Origin: Sipunculus nudus
Taxonomy: Eukaryota > Annelida > Sipuncula > Golfingiida > Sipunculidae
Reading direction: 5' to 3'
NCBI GenBank assembly: GCA_026874595.1
Contig: CM049322.1
Location: forward strand, 42,148,340-42,212,339
Length of the DNA stretch: 64,000 nt
Shown: positions 2,958 to 41,694 of the stretch, one piece after another
Layout: each line of letters starts with the position of its first letter
How positions within the stretch are numbered: position 1 is the stretch's first letter
Program-made: the position numbers and the translations under genes
Notes under the pieces: generated by a model
Told to the model about the DNA's origin: nothing
What the model saw: the letters and a program-made list of their open reading frames with translations, nothing else
Databases searched by the model: none

Positions 2958-4489
2958 TTGCTGGTTAGGGTTAAAGATAAGGAAGAAAAAACATGATATT
3001 CAGTATCATATATTACTAAAATTCTTGTTCCAACAAACTTGATGGACATACATATTCAATATTAATAAAGGGACTTACCTCATATTCAAGAAAGTGTCAG
3101 TATATTTAATATTTCCTTGATATAGCCTAGCAAATTTGAAAAGAAAAGAAGGAAGATACTATAATATCTCACTATATTCATTACTTAATAGCTCTGGATA
3201 TTTGCACATGAACGCATTCATTTATTCTTTTTATAAGATCACTGGTACCCTCTCCAGACGAAATACTGAAATCTAACCATTCATTTTTAATATCAATAAT
3301 TTGTCTCAACTCATATTCATATTTAATTAATTTTTAATATCAATCGACCTGTGGTAAATACACAAATGTACCCTTATATTACAGTTTTCCCAAACAAATA
3401 CCAGTGTCTTTCTATGATTTAAGCTCTATAATGACTATATATATGCTATCCCAAAATACCGACACGTAATAACTCCTTCCTTATCCTTTTCTACTGTTGC
3501 CTTAAATTCTTTTTTCTTTTTATACATTTCCCGTTTTCTGTAGACTGTACCAAACCCAGCCTCTGTATGTTAATACTCATGGCCTAGAAATGTTTCTTTG
3601 TTTTAAACAGGGTTGGCAATTTCTTCCGAGAGACGGTTTCTTCCCCGAAAACTTCCGGACACTTCCGGCTCGGAAAAATAGTCTCCTCCATTTCTTCCGG
3701 AAGAAACTTTCAAATTTCATGTGAGAATATATTTAACTAATAAAATTTCAGCTTTATTTCTGCTAAAACCTAACCCTGTTCCATCTTATAAAGGCTTATA
3801 TTAATATATAGTGTTATCTTATTATATATGACTATTAGTTTAATTTAGTTAGACAAATATGCCTCATGTAGGTTTTCAGTTAGTGAGTTCAGGTGACATA
3901 ATTTAACACAGATTTCAGTCCAGTGAATAGTGCAATGATTATCAGGGGGTTACCTAAAATGTGCAGCTTTACTCCAGTTACCCCTGACTGCACAGGGAGG
4001 CAGGGTATGGGGAAGCCATGACATAATTAACAGGTTCATTCATTATACTATTCAAACGGTCAAACTGCTCCTTGTTATATAACAGATTATTTCACAGCAG
4101 ATACTCATGAACAGAGATAGGGTTTCTCATATTTTCTAGGTATTATCTAGTTTTGGCATAATTCCCAACAAGCTCAGGTATAGACTTCGTGTTTGCAGGG
4201 TTGCAAAATTGGTGTTTTGCTATTGCATACTTCGTGGCAACTTAGTGGTAGATTACTGACAATGGTTTTTGTTTATTGAATTTCCTCCGTGTCATCTGTC
4301 GCTTCTTATCCGTCATGACCTTGTTTTATTTCGATATTTTTATCATTATTTCGGTAACTGGCTGGTCTTTGGTGCTTTTCGTCCTTCCTTTAGGAGGCAT
4401 TTTCTTGAAATTCTATTTTTTTAGGTTATATTTTCTGATTTCTACCGCGGGCGCCGTTTATAGCGTCCTCACTAGCTCTCCATGACACG
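2958..4489. other. non-coding DNA with a TTCCGG-rich patch
   Basis: No gene recognised. Around 3620-3706 there are several CTTCCGG/CCGAAA motifs, including a perfect 16-bp palindrome at 3691-3706 (TTTCTTCCGGAAGAAA). Short frames at 4276-4485 are hydrophobic low-complexity translations with no family resemblance. Confidence 0.5.
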
Positions 4490-6005
4490 AGAAGTCCAAA
4501 TTAAACTCACATACATTGATTTCCTTATCAAGAGCAAATAGCAGTATTTTCAATATCAGGTTATAAGAAAATACATGTTAGTTATAAGGCAAAGAGTAGA
4601 ATGTTTAATTTACTTCTTTAAACAAAACCATCATATCTCCAGAAGCCCAAGGACTAGGATTCGGCAAAACATACATCTGATAGCCCGCCAGCTGCGAATT
4701 ACGATTCATGTGCTACATAATTTTGACACAAAGATGGAGTTTTTTGCCTTGGCACTCGCTGCCAACTTATTCCACAGTACCACAAGTATATGAATCAAAG
4801 GAACGGAATGAATTTGCTCAAGCTCCATATTTGTCAATCCTACCGTTAAAGGTGTTATTTATGACAAAACTTGGTAACGTGGCAAATCACACCACACAGT
4901 AAATGCATCAACCGAGTACAAAAACTCTGGAAATAGAATCCTGCAAAGCTGGTCCTTGGGCCAAAGCTAAGCTTTTTCGTGTAAGAACGTATGTCATGAA
5001 ACGGCTGAATGGTTGACGGGAGATACCGGACATTACCTCTCCTAATGGACAAGATACAGATACCTCATATTTCATGTACATATTACGATGAAAACAGCAC
5101 ACAATCCTTTGATGTATATACAATAATGCTCAGAATTAGTTCTTCCCCTGGAGTCAACAATATAGCATCCAGCCTTGTATATATGTTAGGCTGTGTTTGT
5201 CCCTTACCGTGGAAACTAGTCTATAATGGCCTTATTAGGAAATACCGCATCCGTCTTGGACTTCTAAATGAATTATACTCAAGTCTTCACGCCACAAGTC
5301 ACACCCATGGTTCAGAAAAAAAAAATGTTGTTCAGATGCATTTGGGTGGATTTAATTGATTCCATGCAAACAACATAAAATGTATGATTAAAAATTCTAA
5401 TTATAAAAAAAATTGTATTGAATTTATGAGCATACATGGTGGGTACCATCACACATTTGCATCGCAAATTCTATTTCCCTTCCTATGGGGGATGGGTAAA
5501 TTTTTATATTGTTGGGGAAAGCCCCTTCCACCCCCCATATCCTCCTCACCCCACTCCCACCCTCGAGGCCCCCTCCTTTTCACAGAAGCCTTTGCAACAA
5601 GGTTGACAATATTTAAGTACTCTTTACTTTCTTATTAAAAGAACATTATCATAACCCAGTTCTAAGCGGTATTTCCAAGGAAGAGCGATATTGGAGAATT
5701 GGTAAAGGCCTGGGAGGTTGGGAGTAGAAAGGGTGTTCCCCTCTAGCGGTGTATAAAGGGTTCGACGATTTTCATTTTAAAAATTAATCAATATAGGCTC
5801 AAAGTATTAGGGAGAAACATGATCTACAATTAGAAGAATAGCTGCTAATAGTACTAAACAGTGTTTTTATAAGGATAGGTATATATTAATCAGGTGTATG
5901 ACTACGTTGTTACGATTTGAACTCAAAATGTGACAAATCATCTCCCAACGTCTTCTTCTTCTATAAATGATTCTTCGTAGGCCACCTACTTATATACGGA
6001 CTCAT
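4490..6005. repeat. downstream flank of MDR gene A, duplicated at 30620-31969
   Basis: From about 4490 this sequence aligns with DNA starting near 30620 (shared landmarks: TACATTGAT, ATACATGTTAGTTATAAGG versus ATACATGTTGGTTGTAAGG, CCGTCCGTCCC). The match runs into the terminal exons of both MDR genes, so it is the 3' part of the segmental duplication. The 4926-5036 part is noticeably better conserved than its surroundings. It may include 3' UTR or downstream non-coding DNA; no polyadenylation site was fixed. Confidence 0.65.
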
Positions 6006-6110: not shown

Positions 6111-8885
6111 CTAGAACGAATAAAAATTAAATTGTGAACCAGGGGATAATTAACATGCTTGCAGAGTATATTGATGCAATTTGGTCATAGTATGCGGATA
6201 TTGGATGATACATAATATAATAAAATATATGATGTAAAACTAAAAAATGATATAATATAATAATAAAGTATGATTAAGTAGCATGTTTGTTGTATAATAT
6301 AATATAGTATGACATAATTTAATTTAATATGTCATATAACATATTTGACTTTTAAATAAAGATCTAAGTCTAAAATGAAGAGCACGTAACAACTTTTATA
6401 ATTACATTAACTAAACATAGCAAATAATATGTAATATTATTTAAAATAAAATTTAAAAAAAATATTGTATCATATTAAAAGGTATAGTACGATAAACCGT
6501 AGTGTTTTATAAAAAAATATATTGCAGTGTTATAATGTTGATATTGTTAATGGTATTGGTCAAAAGATAAATGATACAAAAAATTGAATCTGCAAAAAAA
6601 AAAACCAATACAGCATACACTTGAAATGTTGGTTAAAAATGGCGTATAACAAAATAAGCACATCAAATATGCCGCAAGCTGGCATTTAACAACAGAGTGT
6701 TTTAACATAAGAAATTACGGTAATATAATAAATCACCTTGCCCTCAGCAACGAGTCTCGTTACTTCTCTCAAATCGTCTCGGGTGCCCATTTTAGACCCC
6801 TCGATAGTGATACATCCTAGAGTGAGGAGTGGACACTCCGCGACCAGCTGACCTCCGTATAGTCCCACGGGGACCATCTTTGAACCCTAGAAATATATAC
6901 GGTGGCCCGTACGGGACATACAGAAATTTATTTTTATCTCGTTGGAACGAGATAATTATAGATAGACAACACAATAAGACCTATATCTGTAATTCTGAAG
7001 GCATGTTTCTCTGCATGTTGGGTTAAGATTATGGTCAATAATTTGCATGCATATCGAGCAGGCTTAATATGATATGGCCTGAAATGGTGCAACATACAGC
7101 ACTCAGGGCCATGTTTGTTCAGAGAATGTGTGAGAGGGGAAGGGGGGGGGGGGGGGGCTGGGCAGTTCTTAAACAAACTGAATTTTTATGGAAATATTTG
7201 AGCAATTTCACGTAAAAAAGGACAAAATGTGGCCCACTACCTCTGTTTAAAAAGTGATGAGTACATGTCCCCCTCCTCCTCCGCCTATAATGAAGTATCA
7301 AGGCTGAAATCTAATGTTATTAGTTTTTCCCTTGAGACACAACACATACTTACATGTCGTTTTACCTGTTCGATAAACCCAAGATAATATAACTCGAACC
7401 CTGAACCATAACTCTAAAAAAATTAGATTTTCCTGGAAGATGAAATATAAACCAGTGTTTCAGTTTATTTCATCTGTTTAATACACAAGGGTTTATTTCA
7501 TCCGGTCCTTCACCTTAAAATCTGTAACCCTAAGCAAACTCAAGAACCAAAGCAAATAAATCTAGAACCAACGCAAGGAAAGCCGCTGTAAAATCAACCT
7601 TAAGGCTTTCGGCGTAAACGCACATACAACAAAATACATACAAACAATTTAGGTTGCATTTACGCTCTGACATACAACGGACAGTAGACCATGGGTATTC
7701 CTGTCAAAATAAGGGCTTTATCTAGCATGGCATACTAACGCGTGCCCACGCAATAATCATCTCGTGGAAACGAGATAATTATCTCGTCTTCTCGAGATAC
7801 TATCAGGTGGTAACGGGATAGTTATCGCTTGGCCACGCGATACTATCGCGTGAGAACGAGATAAAAAAAATTGGGAGTCCTTTACAGCCACAGTACATAT
7901 ACATATCACAGTGTGAGAAATTTTATTGCCTGTGTGATTCATTTCATATATATTTCAATTAAGTGTAAAGTTAAAAAAATAAAGTTATATGCGTCAGTTT
8001 ATGTTAACTCTAAATCAGGTTTAGATATATAATATTCCACATTAAACATAGAAAGGGAACTAAGTCTCTCATTCTAATTATTAACATATTATTAAATTCC
8101 ATTATTTAAATATTATTCTCTTAATATCAGAGGCGGGGGTGATTACAGGGACGTTCCGCTCTTGCTAAGAAGTGAGGGTATATACCCCACCCTTTGTAAT
8201 GACGCCCCTGGTTAATGGGCTCTTCCACCGCTTGAACTGATAAGCATGGAACGGAGCTGGTCCCAAAGTGGAGATAGTAAAGCAAAGGTGAAGCTAGTAT
8301 TCAGCAACCCTCCGTCTCTCTCCAAAGACGCTACCCTTAGACTGGCAGTATACCGACATTCGGCATAGTAAACCACCAATTCATAAACTGAACAAACCTT
8401 TCGGCCATTTTGGTGGACTTAAACATTTAAATATCGAGTCTTTTTATTTTATTCGTGGTTAAGTCTTACAACAGTCCTTCAAAAGGTTGATTTTATTGCT
8501 TTCGTCAGTATAATATGCGTTCATCCCAGTTCATGTGTGTGTTTGTTCACAACATAACTCAATTTATCTTCAACGGAATGTCTTTATATGTTTTCAGAGC
8601 ATTTTTGGGAAGGGCCAATAAGGAATCGATTACATTTAAGTGTGGTCCCGGAACATGATTCGGATTCAGGAACATCATAAATATTCACAAATGCAAAGTC
8701 ACTAGTGCACAAATGAACCTTGGAATATGGGGCTGCTTGTGTTGAAATGGCTTACCAGTGCGAGCGACCCAAATAATGTTCTGCTGGTACTGGTGCTGTT
8801 TACAAAGTCTACAGCAGCGTGAATCAGCCCCACCTGGTCCTTGGTGGTAGCCACGTTCTCCTCAATGCTCGCTTGATAAACAAAT

Positions 8886-32074: not shown

Positions 32075-35000
32075 CTAGAATGAATGCAAATTAAATTGTG
32101 AACCAGAGTATAATTTACATGCTTAAAGAGTATAATGAAGCAAATTTATCATAGCATGCGGATATTATATATATTTAATATAATATATGATATAATTTAA
32201 AAATAATATACAATGTATAATAAAGTATGATAATGTAGGATTAATGTTGTATTATATAGTATAACGTTACAAAATTTAGTTAATATATTGTATATCATTT
32301 TGAATTTTGTTTTGATTGGACGCTAAAGATCTGAGTGTTAACTTAATTGAGCGAGTAACAACTATTATAATTGTATAAAAACTACACAAACAAATATAGT
32401 GTAATATTATTTTAAAACAAATTTATAAAAAATTTAAAAAATATAAAATAAATTAAAATATATGGTACGATACACTCTAGATGTTTATAAATAATATATT
32501 GCAATGTTGATACTGTAAAAAGTATTCGTCAAAAGATAAAGAATACAAACCATTGAATCTGCAAAAAAATACCAATATAGCGTACACTTGAATGTTGGTA
32601 AAGAATTAGCGTTTAACAAATTATGCACATCGAATATGCCTCAAACTGGCTTTTAGCAATATAAGTTTTCACATTAGAAATTAAGGTAATATAATAAACC
32701 ACCTTGCCCTCAGCGACGAGTCTCGTTACTTCTCTCAAATCGTCTCGGTTACCCGCTAGAGACCCCTCGATAGTGATACATCTGAGAGTGAGGTATGGAC
32801 ACTCCGCGACCAGCTGACCTCCGTGACCCCCCACTGGGACCATCTTAGCACCCTAATAATATATAAGGTGACTCGTACAGGACATACAGAAATTTATTTT
32901 TATCTCGTTCCCACGCGATAGTATCAAACTAGATATAAAATATAGATAGACAATACAGTAAGACCTATATTTTTTAATCCTTAAGGTATGTTTCTGTACA
33001 CTGGATTAAGATTATGGTCAATTGTTTGCATGCATATCGAGCGACTCGTACAGGACATACAGAAATTTATTTTTATCTCGTTCCCACGCGATAGTATCAA
33101 ACTAGATATAAAATATAGATAGACAATACAGTAAGACCTATATTTTTAATCCTTAAGGTATGTTTCTGTACACTGGATTAAGATTATGGTCAATTGTTTG
33201 CATGCATATCGAGCGGGCTTAATACGCTGACCAGAAATGGTGCAACAGCGACTCATACAGTACTCATGGGCCATTTTTTTTTCAGAGAATGTGTGAGAGG
33301 CTAAGGGGGGTAGTTCAGATAAAATGAAATATTATTGTGGAAACACCTGAGGGGAAAATTGATCAGTTTTCTCGTAAAAAGGTTTATTCCCTGAAAGAGG
33401 GTAAAAAGTTGGCACACTACATCTCCTAAAAAAGTGACACGCCCACGCCTATAATGAAGTGTCATGGCTGACACCTTTTGGTGTAAGCTTCTCCCTTGAG
33501 AGACAACATAAACCGACATATTGTTTACTCTGTTCAGTATACCCTAGACTATATAACCCGAACCTTTAACCCTGACCCTAAAAAATTAAAATATTTCAAT
33601 TGAAGATAAAATACAAACCAGTGTATAAGTTTATCTTATATGTTTAATACACAAGGGTTTATTTCACCTGTAGCCTAATAATGGGGACCGTACATGATAA
33701 AACAAATTTATTTTTATTTCATATTGATGCCAAAGTTTGCTTTTATTGTATCAAATTGAAGCTTGGGACCTTGTCTACAAGTTCAGTCCAAGTGGACAAT
33801 GATCTGCCCGCTAGGGGGCGCTTGGGGCCATCATAAAGCTGAACCTTCGTTGATGATCAGCATGGCAATGTTAATCGGAATAGGGGCATACATGACATAC
33901 ATGGTGCACCGAATTAACATGATATACATTGATATATGTCATATACTTATTAAAATAAGATATAATGTATAATATAATGAAGTTTATATAAAAAATATCT
34001 AAGGAAATTAAAATAAATCTTATAAAATCAAGTATAATATGATATAATAAAATATACTGAATATGATATTATATATGAATCAATATCTCCGAGAACGATT
34101 TGCTTTTGACTAGAAAATCACGCGAAATCACCTAAATATAATTTAGTAACATGATTTAATTAAATAAATGAGCTCAGCAGAACAAGAACTTCATAAAAAT
34201 TGTGACGTGCATCCATTTTCTTTAACTGACAGTCGACAATCGACCAAACAATTGAATCTGTTCTTTAAATACACTGTTTATTTATATGAATAATGAAAGA
34301 ACATGCAGTAAAACATAATAGACCCAGCTGATTTGTTGAAAATATTTACTAAGTCTGCTCAGCTCCGAGAGTTCTCTGGATTTTAATGAACAACTCGCTC
34401 ATACCAGAAATGAATGAGAGTCTTTGCAAACAATAGGTCTGTCCGGTTCTATCGACTTGGGATTAAATAAAACCATATCTTTGATGATCAGCTTGTAGAA
34501 AGTTATCAAAAACAGCAAGTGATTGTGAATTTGGATTCACATCATATGGAAAACTTCAGTTCACTGTGCGGCCTTGGCAAAAAGCGACTACAACTTTGAC
34601 CGGCCTGACTGTGGCGCTGCAACCCTGAACGCTGGAGAAATTATCAGGTCATCAACAAAAGGTAGATCATTTTTAGAAGAGCATAATGAACCATATGCCC
34701 CATGTTACTTCGAAATTTAGATTCTTTGGTAAAAGTACAGTCGTGCTTCATTATCATCATAATGGTCAGTAGAACAAGGTGTAATTTTCATACAAGGATC
34801 TAGCCGAAATTTCAAGTAGTTCATAAAGCTTGAGTTTGTAAAATAAAGTACAAATCCACTAAATAATGAAACGTATACTGTATGTTACCTTCCACGTTAT
34901 ATATTTTGCGTCCCTTTAAAAGTTTAGGATATATGATGTGTTACATTAAACGGTCTGCCGGGAAATACAACACCAAAGTTAAAATCTTTAAACTGACAAA

Positions 35001-38000
35001 GCCACATATTATTCTTTTGAGAATTAACTTATTTTAATTGGATGTAATTTGTTATTTATACTGAACGCCTAAATATACTGTTTATATAAGCTAGAAGTAA
35101 CTGCTTTCATTTGCTGTATTTTTACTATTAATTATTTATTTCTTTTCAGACTGAGATGGCTAAGAAAAAAACCTGCGTGTTATGCCAAAAAGAAACTAAT
35201 GGGGAACTCGTATGTCAACTTGACAACCCGGTTGCTGCAAGGAGAGAAGAACCATATCGGTACATTATAACCCTTCATAATCAGTTCAAAGAATTCGAAG
35301 AGGCCCCCCCCCCCCATCCTAACTTAGAACTTCAGATGAAGAATCCGTGCGAAAAAGCCGCGCACCCTGGCATTAAAGATGTCGCCAGCTTTACAAGGCA
35401 TCATCACTTGAACTAGCCCTGCCTTGTCTTTAGTGTATTGATGTTTACTGCTAAAATGTTTCACTTGAAACGTGATTCCTTGTATCGTGATAGACGCGAC
35501 GTAACTCAGTTCTAGCTCTTATCACTAAAGCCCTGTAAAGTCCGTATGGCGAATCCCTGATATTTGCATATTAGGGCGTCACAAGGCTCCTGCCGATTCC
35601 CTTGCATTTGCATATCAGGCCGCCCGGCCTCCTGTGAATGGCATCGTTGCTATGAAGAGGCTAACAGCATCCCATAGGCAATAGACAGCTCAACCCGCTT
35701 GGTAATATTCGCACTGAAATCATGCATGTTTTTAGAAAGTCCATACATGGACCTTCGTGTCCTATGATATATCTCTGCTGTTCGAACATACGGTCCATGG
35801 GCAAATGTAAGTGTATTGTAGACAAATTCGCATCGATTTTGTACGGTGTATTTGTTAGTGTTCAAGTTACACATGAAAGTTTTGCCACTGTTGAGTTGCC
35901 AACTCGCTGAAAGTCGTGATCGTTTCAGTCAGCCGGTACATGAATAAGAGTTTGACTGCGTTCATCGCGTGTGGACCTGAATATCTCACGCTGATTGGCT
36001 GAGCTGGAGACACATTTTAAACCGGCCTGCTGCGATAAGCAATGGTCTGATAAACGGTGACATACTGACTCACTGAGGCTGAGAGTTTTATATAGTATTA
36101 AAAATCTTGCCGTACTCAAATAGCCGAGGACCTAAACATATTAAGACTGATAAAAATGGAAATATATATATATATATATATATAGAAAGCCCGAAGCCTA
36201 CAATAGGCGGTTACTGAATTAACCATGTTGGTATTGAAATAAGATTCTGGGAAAGACCACTATAATTACTCCTTACGTCACTGGGAATGACCTTAGTTCA
36301 GCGAGGCGGTGATGTGTGGCGCTGACTGTCCGGTACGGCCCAAGTTTACCAGTCGATGAAATAAGAGGGTCAGAGAATGGTACGTAGTTATGTAAGTTGC
36401 CGCGTGATATCAGTACCGACACTAAGTGCGACACAGTGAGAGCCGTTTGATATCTCTGTCAGAGCCATTTCATTGACTGGGCCAGTCTACACTTGAACGA
36501 ACGAAAAGACGTTCTTTGCAAGGGCAACCTCCTCAAAGAAAAATACCAAGGCGGTGCAGTTCAGTTATTAATCGGCTCTTGTGCCTCTTTTGCGGTAAAG
36601 AAACAAGTGAGACAGATCATTCTTTCCAGAAACTTAACCTTACCAAAGATATTCATGACAAAGCAGTAGTACTAGCAGAAGATAATATTGTTGTTCGCCT
36701 TGCTGAAGGGGACCTGGTTGCAATTGAGGCCAAATATTAACGGACTTGCTACACTGGATTCAATCGAGGGTTCAGATAATTAATCCGAAGGCAGGACCAA
36801 AGAACAACAAGCGTATATACTGAAGTAGTTATAGAAAAAGAGCTATTACAGTTCATCGAAGAAGAAGTTGCTGCAGGGTGTAAAATGTTTGCACTGCAAG
36901 ATTTGACAAATATGATGACAGAAAGATTGCATGAACATGGCATCCAGAAGTCCGTGAACAGAACTCGTCTGAAATAAATGGTACTTGGACGCTTCACTGA
37001 TTTACGAGAAGAGAAAGGAGTTCGTGATAGGGTGTTTCTTATATGCTCGGAGGCAGCTAGAAAGATTATATCAGATGCCAGTCAGACACCAGAGGAAGAG
37101 TCACGCACATTATTATTAGCCGCTTCAATTCTACGTAAAGCCGTCCTAGAGCATGATAATTACACATTCAAGGGTTCGTTTTCAAGTGGTTGTGAAAACT
37201 CGGCTGTTCCTGGCAAAATGAAGTACTTCTTCCGACAGCTACTTGCAGGACCAAACTCTTCGCCAGCTGAAGAAAAGTCAAGGAAGGTCCTCTTTGTGGG
37301 TCAAACAACTATGCTGAATATGACTTCATTTTCTGCAAACTTGAAGTGCGAACCACCCCTTACTCTGTTCTTGGAACTGAATGTGCATTTTCAAACAAGA
37401 AGAAGGAGGTTGGTCCAACTCTTACATGAAAACTGTCTGAGTGTGTCCTATAAAAGGATAATTTCTATTTGTGCTGCCCAGGCTATTGCTGAACAAACTA
37501 AGCGTAACTCTGATACCGTTTTTCCTAATTTTCTTCGTAATCACATTTTTACAGTTGCAGCTCTTGACAACTTGGATCACAATCCTTCATCCCGGACAGC
37601 CACCTCTTCATTTCATGGAACTGGAATTTCAATTTTTCAGTTTCCATCCCTAGGTAAACTTGGTGTGGACCAAGAACCGACAGAATTCGACTTCCGAGTA
37701 CGACATTCAGGCACAAGTGGATCCATTCTGCCATCAGCATACACGTTTGATCCACCTGTTTGCAGAAACCTGATACACCAACCTCCAGAAAGACATGTAG
37801 AGCCAATCGTTTTAGAATCATTTGAGAAAGAAAGAAATCATGAAAAATCGTGGATGACAGCAGTGCATTCCATGCTGCATGAAGATTCTGACTCACAACG
37901 GAGGCAATCATGTGGTCAGCATACCATGCTTCCAGATTGGATGCTACTGGAGCAGCTTCAAATTGAATTGAGGGCCTGTTGCCTGGCAGCCTCGCCAGGA

Positions 38001-41000
38001 ATGATTCGACATGGTATGGAACTTGTGAAAAAAAAAAAAATAACTGAATACCTTAATCCACAGCAAATACCTGTCTTGGTGGTAGGTCAACCGCTTTATA
38101 CAATAGAAAAGACAGTCAAGTGGACCTTCCCCGAGATGTATGGATAAGATATGTTTTTTGTTATGCTAGGAGGGCTTCACATTGGAATGGCTCTCTGGGC
38201 TACTATGGGGGATCTCTTACGCGGGTCTGGGTGGCCTGAAACCCTCACAGAAGCAGGGATCACTAAAACGGAGGTGGCAGCCACATCTTTTTTGAGAGCA
38301 TCGGATCCAATGAGAACCCGTTACGCGCACCAAATCACTGCTGTGGTTCTAGACATTCTCCTGAAGCAGGCTTACAAACATTCTGGACAAGAGGTTGAAT
38401 TTGATGAGTGGCTGGTAACAGGGTGTAAAGAGAAACGAACAATACAAGTCCGGCTGTTCATTTACCAACAGCTTATACTGATGTTCATACGGTCACACCG
38501 GGAACGTAAGTCCAAACGTATGACAGCCTGTTTGAAGCTCTTGGTACCTCTGTTTTTTCCCTAGATCACCCGAACTTCGCTCGGTGGGTTCCTGTCTTCA
38601 TCAGAGACTTGGAGTCTCTTCCATCTGCCATTCTGGAAGAGTTTGAAATAGGACACTGGGTTATTTCAAGAAGCAACCATCGCTTTCCATCCATCCGGAT
38701 TGATCATGCCCATGAGCAGGCTAATAAAAGGGTTAAAGGACTAGGTGGGGTGATCGTTATCACTGAAAATCCTGCTATATTAGAGCGCTGGGTTCTCACT
38801 GGTCCTGAAAGAAGTCGTATTGTGGAGCAATTCACAGAAAGTAGTGCCGGGGTTGACATTGAGGAGCTTCCTCATCATGAGGAAGGAAGAGCATCCCAGC
38901 ATCGTTTTTAACGTCATGTTACAGATCTACTGGATGCTATTTTGACCAAAGGAAATCCTTTTGAGGAAACTAGTACAGACCTGGTTACACTAGACAATAA
39001 AGTCTGTGTTGATGAATCCGCTGCAGTGTCTGTTTGTATTTTAGAATCCAGGGGCCAAGAACAATATGAATCTTTCTAGAAAGACGTCCTTGAAAAAAAT
39101 GACGTCCCTTTCAAATCACCAAACAAGAAAAACAACCTGTTGCTTTTCCATGATAAGAAACATCAAAGGAAGACATTACCTCAGAAAAAAAGTGCAACAC
39201 TACAAGCGACATGCAGACTGGTACGGACAGTTATTGTTCGCACTCGATGGCCGTGGTGGAAATCTAAAGGAATTTTTCCGTCATGAATCTTGTTCATACC
39301 CACTAACCCTTTCCTTTGAGGGAGCTCTCAACTCCTGTACGAAATCGGACTTGTTGGCATACGTTTTAGAAACTAATGCAGCCAAGAAACTAGCTGGAGA
39401 TGAGGAGTTAGTGACACCAGATACGTATGTGTTCATTATTATTGATGGTTATGCGCTGATTCACACTCTACCTAGGAAACCAGTACAAGGAAAATCATTC
39501 GATGAATATTTCATGAAAGTTTTCTACCCAAGGATTCGGCATGATATGAAAAGGACAGCAAGAGTTGATGTTATCTGGGACCAGTACCATACATTTACAA
39601 TCAAAGGAAGGTGAACGAGAGAAACTGGTACACGGCAGCCCATGTCTGGCAGTGCAAAGGTCCCACGAAACTGGCAAATTTTCTTAACAAATGCAGACAA
39701 CAAGAAGGAATTCTACAAAACAGATCGGAATGCAGTTTCAAGATGATAAGTCAGTCCATATAACTTCGGCTGATCATGTACTCCATGCAGGTAATGGCAC
39801 TCCTATGGGAAGTGCAATCATGAGGAGGCAGATACACGTGTCCTGGTACATCTTCTCCATGTCCTCCAATACTCATCACTATGGATGGTACATACCGGAG
39901 ACACAGATGTTGTAGTAATACTTCTCAGTAATTACCACCACATCATAACGGGAAACCTTAAAGCAGAAATCTGGATTTCTTTCAGAAGTGGAAAAGACAC
40001 CAAAATGATCTCTTAACTGCATAGCTATAAGCTTAGGTGAGAAAATGTACAAGGGAATGGCTCTATTACATGCTCTCACAGGTTCAGACAGCACATCAGC
40101 CTTTAAGTTTAAGGGAAAGAGGTCCTGTTTCAAGACCGAGAACAAAGTTTCCACACCTTATGGGAGAGTTGCATCTGTTGCCAGCATTCCATATCAGATA
40201 ACATCACAACTGAAAGAGGTTGTGACTCATTTTGTCTGCAGACTGTACACCAGTGAACGTTGCCTTGATTATGCCAATGTTGATCTGCTCAAAATGAAAA
40301 TGTTCTGTCACAAGACCAGGGATGTGGAGAGAATACCCCCAACCAGCGATGCTCTGGAGCAGCATCTCAAAAGAAACGACTTTAAGTAAGTATTTTGATT
40401 ACAGCTCATGAGCCGATGATGTCCGTGCAAGATCCCTGCGATCATGGATGGAATGAGACAAACAATAAACTGGTTCTGGTTTGGACGACACTACCTGGGA
40501 TGTCTTCGATCTTGATGTAAAGTGCTCCTGCACAAAAACATGTTCATGGTGCAAGTGCAGAAAAACAAATTTCAGATGTAGACGTTTGTGCAAATGCACA
40601 TGTCTTAATGACTTATGAACGCTTTGAAGTCAGTTAATACTGGTAAATGTTTCTATGCTCATGACACATTAAAACTATTTATGAACTTGTTTTCTTAGGT
40701 ATTTGTTTATAAATTACATATAAAAATTAGATACGTACGTGTTGCGTCTCTTGCAGCATTTTATTGCAGAGTAAATGACTTAAAATATATTCTAACTGGA
40801 AGAATAAATCAAATGCTAAAGCCATTTTTATATGATCATTTTTCTGAAGACCCGTATTCAGAGAACTCAAGGCACCAAGCGCCCCCTAGTGGCCGGATCA
40901 TTGTCCACTTAGTCCAAAGTTGTAGTTTAGGTCACCACCTTTAATTTGATACCAAAAAGTAAACTTTTGCATCAATCTCCAATGACTGGCTCCCGGGGTC

Positions 41001-41694
41001 CCCCACTATAACCTTAAAATCTGTAACCCTAAACAAAATCAAGCTGAACCAACACAATGAATTATTGAAACAACGCAATGAAAGCCGCTGTAAAATTAAC
41101 CTCAACGCATTCGGCGTAAACGCACATACAACAAAATACATACACAATTTAGGTTGCATTTACGCTCCGACATACAACGGACAGTAGACTACAAACATTC
41201 TTGTCCAAATGAGGGCTTTAGCTAACATGGCTTACTAACGCGTGGCCACCCGAAAACCATCTCGTGGAAACGAGACATCATCGCGTTCGAACGAGATAAT
41301 TCTCGCGTGGCCACGAGATGCTATCGCGTGGGAACGAGACAGTTATCGCGTGGCCACGCGATACAAACAAAAATACAGATACTGCCTACTCTTAGTGTAG
41401 GGTGATAACGAAAAAGACTAACGGGAAAGTTATAGTCAGCAGTGTGATGTTAAGGCAAATGACTTTTTGAATAATAGTACATACCCCCCCCCTCCCCAAC
41501 CCCTTTCCGGGTTTTTCACAATCAGTCACTAGACGGTTCCACAGCCGGTCAAAAATGACTTACCAGCGCGAGCGTCCCAAATAATGTTCTGCTGGTACTG
41601 GTGCTGTTCACGAAGTCTACAGCAGCGTGAATCAACCCCGCCTGGTCCTTGGTTGTAGCCACGTTCTCTTCAATGCTCGCTGAATAAACACACA

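Follow-up and report, generated by a model that had tools for sequence, protein, structure and literature searches.

A broken transposon with inverted ends and 3-bp target duplications in Sipunculus nudus, probably a member of the AcademX lineage

DNA transposons of the Academ superfamily have been described as carrying a RecQ helicase (PMC3627910). The duplications that they leave at the target site measure 9-10 bp in AcademH and 3-4 bp in AcademX elements, a difference that seemingly comes from the enzyme encoded, which is a helicase in the former and a nuclease in the latter (PMC10045372, Kojima 2023). The superfamily has expanded in bivalves, and the consensus elements of these animals average 5565 bp (PMC10294476). 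We compared with these systems an element that lies at positions 33679-41008 of a 64,000-bp stretch (the window) on contig 17 (CM049322.1, 42,148,340 to 42,212,339) of the 1.43-Gb assembly of the peanut worm Sipunculus nudus. A first-pass annotation had proposed that its open reading frame (ORF) encodes the mobility protein of an unclassified superfamily with terminal inverted repeats (TIR). Our data confirm that the element is a real TIR DNA transposon, present as a broken copy. It is probably the defunct remnant of an Academ transposon of the AcademX lineage that was formerly autonomous and moved by cut-and-paste, and most likely represents a new family of this already named superfamily rather than a new superfamily.

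Inverted ends, insertion site and dispersed copies

The element is 7330 bp long and a TAA triplet stands on either side of it. Its ends and the corresponding empty site are located as follows:

33676..33678: left target-site duplication TAA, flush with the tip
33679..33829, plus strand: left terminal inverted repeat with the tip TAATGGGGACC; the well-paired part is 33723-33829
40871..41008, minus strand: right terminal inverted repeat; its tip, read inwards, is TAGTGGGGGACC
41009..41011: right target-site duplication TAA, flush with the tip
7500..7512: paralogous stretch, empty site with a single TCA

When the left end (33723-33829) was aligned locally with the reverse strand of the right end (40871-40976), we found 81% identity over 107 bp. 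The score of this alignment was 112, and the maximum among 200 shuffles was 28. The extreme tips, starting at 33679 and 41008, pair as well, but between the tips and position 33723 the likeness of the two ends is poor. Inverted repeats of about 140-150 bp had been reported here at a distance of 7.3 kb; the paired ends were recovered, but this length holds only if the poorly paired gap is counted. The TAA direct repeat that had been placed outside the ends was found flush with them. The uninterrupted paralogous site, which had been located near 7500-7525 in a putative intron of gene A, could be narrowed to 7500-7512. In the alignment to the paralogous stretch, the left flank of the element ends at 7500, the right flank resumes at 7512, and a single TCA stands there opposite the TAA-element-TAA of the window. 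This is an empty site with one triplet mismatch. Beside the empty site (7720-7870) as well as the filled one (41236-41371), there are short repeats of palindromic structure, of the type CTCGTGGAAACGAGA / CACGCGATA.

A search of the same genome with the left end yielded at least 41 matches (40 of 59 candidates scored), and 20 loci with such matches were compared (L009-L028). Pieces of the ORF were present in six of them, together with both ends in L010, L011 and L012 and with one end within the stretch examined in L009, L013 and L019. Thus, the same ORF lies between the same two ends in three further copies, and the proposal that it forms part of the element is borne out. Five other loci (L014, L015, L017, L018, L022) had both ends and no ORF match, and these look like non-autonomous copies. 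Ends that lack the ORF had been named in advance as evidence against the proposal; they do occur, but they are ordinary for non-autonomous copies. In the remaining nine loci, one end and no ORF was found in the stretch examined, and L016 additionally carried 38 bp resembling the second end. L018 carries two right-hand TIR-family ends of identical orientation, at 4858 and 5076, a distance of 218 bp. The DNA identity to the window copy was 89.7% for L010, 87.7% for L009, L011 and L019, 87.5% for L012 and 82.9% for L013, calculated from aligned pieces of at least 60 bp including cross-matches between the two ends.

The positions of the two ends could be assigned for 11 copies, namely the window copy, L010, L011, L012, the five copies without ORF and two distant relatives (L029, L030). 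In 10 of them, the tips are directly bordered by an exact duplication of 3 bp, which in no case continues to 4 bp. The duplicated triplets were TAA, TCT, TGA, TAC, ATA, CTA, TTC and ATA in the family of the window copy, and GAG (L029) and TAA (L030) in the distant relatives. The exception was L022, the ends of which are runs of G. The tips read TAGT or TAAT with two exceptions, CAGT at the right end of L011 and TAGC at the left end of L015. Tip and duplication were chosen as the best combination within 6 bases, which biases the count toward success; for the ten copies with such a duplication, a matching triplet was seen in 65 of the 1690 offset pairs tried (3.8%). The target duplications that were to be looked for in full-length copies are present, but their sequence varies and is not a fixed TAA, TA or TTAA. 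That an inverted repeat surrounds an old host gene by chance, and that no transposon is involved, is exceedingly improbable in the face of the shuffle control, the empty site and the dispersed copies with exact 3-bp duplications; only the decay of the ORF counts in its favor.

These data also bear on whether the element belongs to another named DDE superfamily, namely KDZ (Kyakuja-Dileera-Zisupton), EnSpm/CMC or Kolobok, which we consider very unlikely. Kolobok elements target TTAA and the duplications found here vary in sequence. In favor of such an assignment, it can be argued that the tips of the element contain TAGTG/CACTA and that KDZ and CMC proteins are likewise large and cysteine-rich. 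EnSpm/CACTA (CMC) elements also share short duplications with it, but they carry CACTA at the 5' tip, and the tips of our element are the opposite way round. For KDZ lineages, the duplications measure 7-8 bp (PMC12730594), in contrast to 3 bp in this family.

Coding region and conserved motifs

The remains of the ORF extend as broken frames from 35150 to 40603 and comprise the following parts:

35150..35413, plus strand: N-terminal coding piece with the first cysteine cluster (35171-35215); on visual comparison, similar to the N-terminus of L029
35414..36489: later, nested 1076-bp insertion; its 9-bp duplication, CACTTGAAC, occupies 35405-35413 and 36490-36498
36490..36738, plus strand: coding piece in more than one frame with the second cysteine cluster (36576-36620)
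36978..38144, plus strand: DDE part 1 with the first Asp motif DNLDHN (37566-37583); the second Asp position in 38073-38099 (VLVVGQPLY) is Gly
38148..38908, plus strand: DDE part 2 in two frames with the GGLH motif (38160-38189) and the Glu motif IDHAHEQANKRVKG (38699-38740); in sister copies this part matches DUF6589
39045..40386, plus strand: FEN1-like nuclease part in broken frames with IIDG (39429-39458), WDQY (39564-39587), EEAD (39816-39839), DTDV (39891-39920) and HALTGSD (40069-40089)
40517..40603, plus strand: C-terminal CXC-type cysteine cluster; similar clusters end L029, L030, L033 and L034

The nested insertion was missing in all five copies compared (L009, L010, L011, L012, L019), and without it the element measures about 6.2 kb, against the mean of 5565 bp given for the Academ consensus elements of bivalves (PMC10294476). 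The tips of this insertion, read inwards, are TAGCCCTGCC / TAGACTGGCC. A stop codon (38145-38147) and several frameshifts further interrupt the coding region. This structure agrees with the one large decayed ORF of the first-pass annotation, and the window copy should be inert because of the Gly at the second Asp, the stop codon, the frameshifts and the nested insertion.

When we searched the genome with a 389-residue piece of the window protein, we obtained at least 107 matches (106 of 172 candidates scored), many of which are divergent copies that retain long open frames. Two such frames lie between the TIRs in L029 (600 plus 957 amino acids) and likewise in L030 (450 plus 974 amino acids), and the proteins of these two loci are 34-35% identical to this piece. 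In the L030 subfamily, we identified six stop-free nuclease regions, its own and five with 96-97% identity to it (C11:72061221, C13:15238296, C13:15835769, C15:58897939, C16:18128739, C9:43438435), and this sequence pattern may be read as a sign of recent amplification of the subfamily. Viral contigs were searched with the L030 protein and with the alignment of the DNxD region, and no relatives were found there.

In the alignments of the single large protein that the relatives encode, the motifs follow each other in the order cysteine clusters, DNxD, second Asp, GGLH, Glu, eight acids and CXC-type cluster. DNxD is present in all six aligned rows and GGLH in most aligned copies. The second Asp, mostly in the context DQPLY, is retained in each of the nine other copies shown, in contrast to the Gly of the window copy. 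The Glu is found in every row of a 7-row alignment. The eight acids that follow it (IxDG, (W/F)DxY, EEAD, DTDV, HAxxGxD) are invariant in six of six rows and appear in the same order as in FEN1. The PIN-like/CXC features ascribed to the ORF can therefore be upheld at the motif level; the label CXC for the C-terminal cluster was assigned by eye and this cluster gave no family match. A C(2)C motif has been described for EnSpm, Transib and Plavaka, and EnSpm/CACTA proteins also contain H(3-4)H (PMC12730594). No C(2)C is conserved between the second Asp and the Glu in our 7-row alignment, which argues against EnSpm.

Relation to Academ and strength of the assignment

The putative link to Academ runs through the Pfam family DUF6589 (cut-off 27 bits), which was matched above the cut-off by L010 (31.6 bits, E-value 9.1e-8) and L034 (27.6 bits). 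These matches cover about 90 and about 160 of 410 positions. A genome-wide search for DUF6589 yielded 26 matches including these two loci, and none of 14 control genomes had a match. The best DUF6589 gene of the same genome (L043, 136 bits, 3671-5332, plus strand) lies 1.8 kb from an ORF on the opposite strand (7139-7948, minus strand) that matches Helicase_C of the superfamily 2 helicases (8e-13). This locus is possibly an AcademH element, and the 9.5 kb examined there revealed no inverted ends. When the DDE core of our family was compared by hhalign with the DUF6589 proteins of L043 and L044, a P-value of 2.9e-4 and a probability of 41% were obtained, with Glu aligned on Glu.

With AcademH, the element shares this DUF6589-type core as a low-level likeness to the candidates L043 and L044. 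It differs from AcademH, in which a helicase replaces the nuclease and the duplications measure 9-10 bp instead of 3 bp (PMC10045372). No helicase was detected among the Pfam matches of seven window pieces or of the L029 and L030 frames. AcademX presumably also unites nuclease and DDE core in one protein. Like our element, it has TIRs. It is described as having short (3-4 bp) duplications and a nuclease (PMC10045372), to which the 3-bp duplications and the apparent nuclease of our element would correspond. A CXC-type end and TAGT tips are not mentioned for AcademX in the text consulted, and little of the search was aimed at them.

The proposal of an unclassified TIR superfamily is thus probably wrong, since L010 exceeds the DUF6589 cut-off and the 3-bp duplications together with an apparent nuclease fit the description of AcademX. 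A match of the ORF to an already classified superfamily, which had been named as evidence against novelty, is likely, but it is indirect, via DUF6589. It is accordingly unlikely that the element represents a superfamily that is not yet classified, distantly related to Academ and working by the same mechanics outside the named superfamilies. This alternative could draw on the partial coverage of DUF6589, on the lack of any match of the window pieces to Pfam (seven pieces) or NCBIfam (five pieces), and on the fact that AcademX was available for comparison as a description and not as a reference protein. We consider it quite unlikely that the family forms a deeply separate Academ-like lineage worth its own rank, in which DDE core, FEN1-like nuclease and CXC DNA-binding end would be joined in one protein of about 1400-1500 amino acids and the flap nuclease would be essential to transposition.

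Several observations weigh against the assignment to AcademX. The name was set by published descriptions and not by comparison with an Academ reference protein. The AcademX nuclease is one that we take to be of the XPG type. The source consulted (PMC10045372) says only "nuclease". DUF6589 stayed below the cut-off in L030 (15.2 bits) and L038 (15.0 bits), and neither the Glu piece of the window copy nor L029 gave a match. The equation of DUF6589 with the Academ core rests on one clear helicase neighbour, since the ORF adjoining L044 has RecQ-like text and no Pfam match, and no paper naming DUF6589 turned up in the literature searched. A decayed copy outside the 7-row alignment (L040) has Val at the Glu position. 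For the nuclease, no Pfam match to FEN1 was obtained with the window pieces, the L029 and L030 frames or the relatives, and a profile search of the PDB with the nuclease part gave no match. In hhalign, the comparison with 16 archaeal FEN1 rows reached a non-significant 0.3%, a value exceeded by one of six control pairs, in which FEN1 was compared with the DDE core (0.8%). The score of a semi-global profile alignment to FEN1 was within the shuffle range (reached by 18 of 100 shuffles).

In this profile comparison, five of the seven catalytic acids of FEN1 fell on invariant acids of the family at gap costs of 1, 1.5 and 2, and none at 3. Five acids were reached by none of 200 column shuffles, but by 13 of 100 rotations, in which the order is largely preserved. 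Sequence searches of the PDB with L030 and L029 gave chance-level matches or none. AlphaFold2 models of two window pieces, read through stops and predicted from single sequences, had mean pLDDT values of 34.1 and 33.7. We therefore place the putative homology of the nuclease part to FEN1 at the motif level. Taken together, AcademX is the best-supported name, and we infer both of the links that lead to it, that of DUF6589 with Academ and that to the nuclease fold.

Proposed mechanism and implications

In the mechanism that we propose, the cysteine clusters at both ends of the protein would bind the ends of the element. An RNase-H-type D-D-E site would excise it and join it to the target DNA with a 3-bp stagger, and the FEN1-like nuclease may trim the intermediate. 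Copies with ends but without the ORF would be mobilized in trans. The window copy probably inserted after the duplication that produced the two paralogous stretches, and was then broken by the nested insertion, stops and frameshifts and by loss of the second catalytic Asp.

Our data suggest that the Pfam family DUF6589 includes the final portion of the core of a DDE transposase. With this assignment, a candidate is removed from the list of new superfamilies, and an AcademX-type family is gained in which an empty site and 3-bp duplications are documented and which includes non-autonomous derivatives as well as relatives that retain long open frames.

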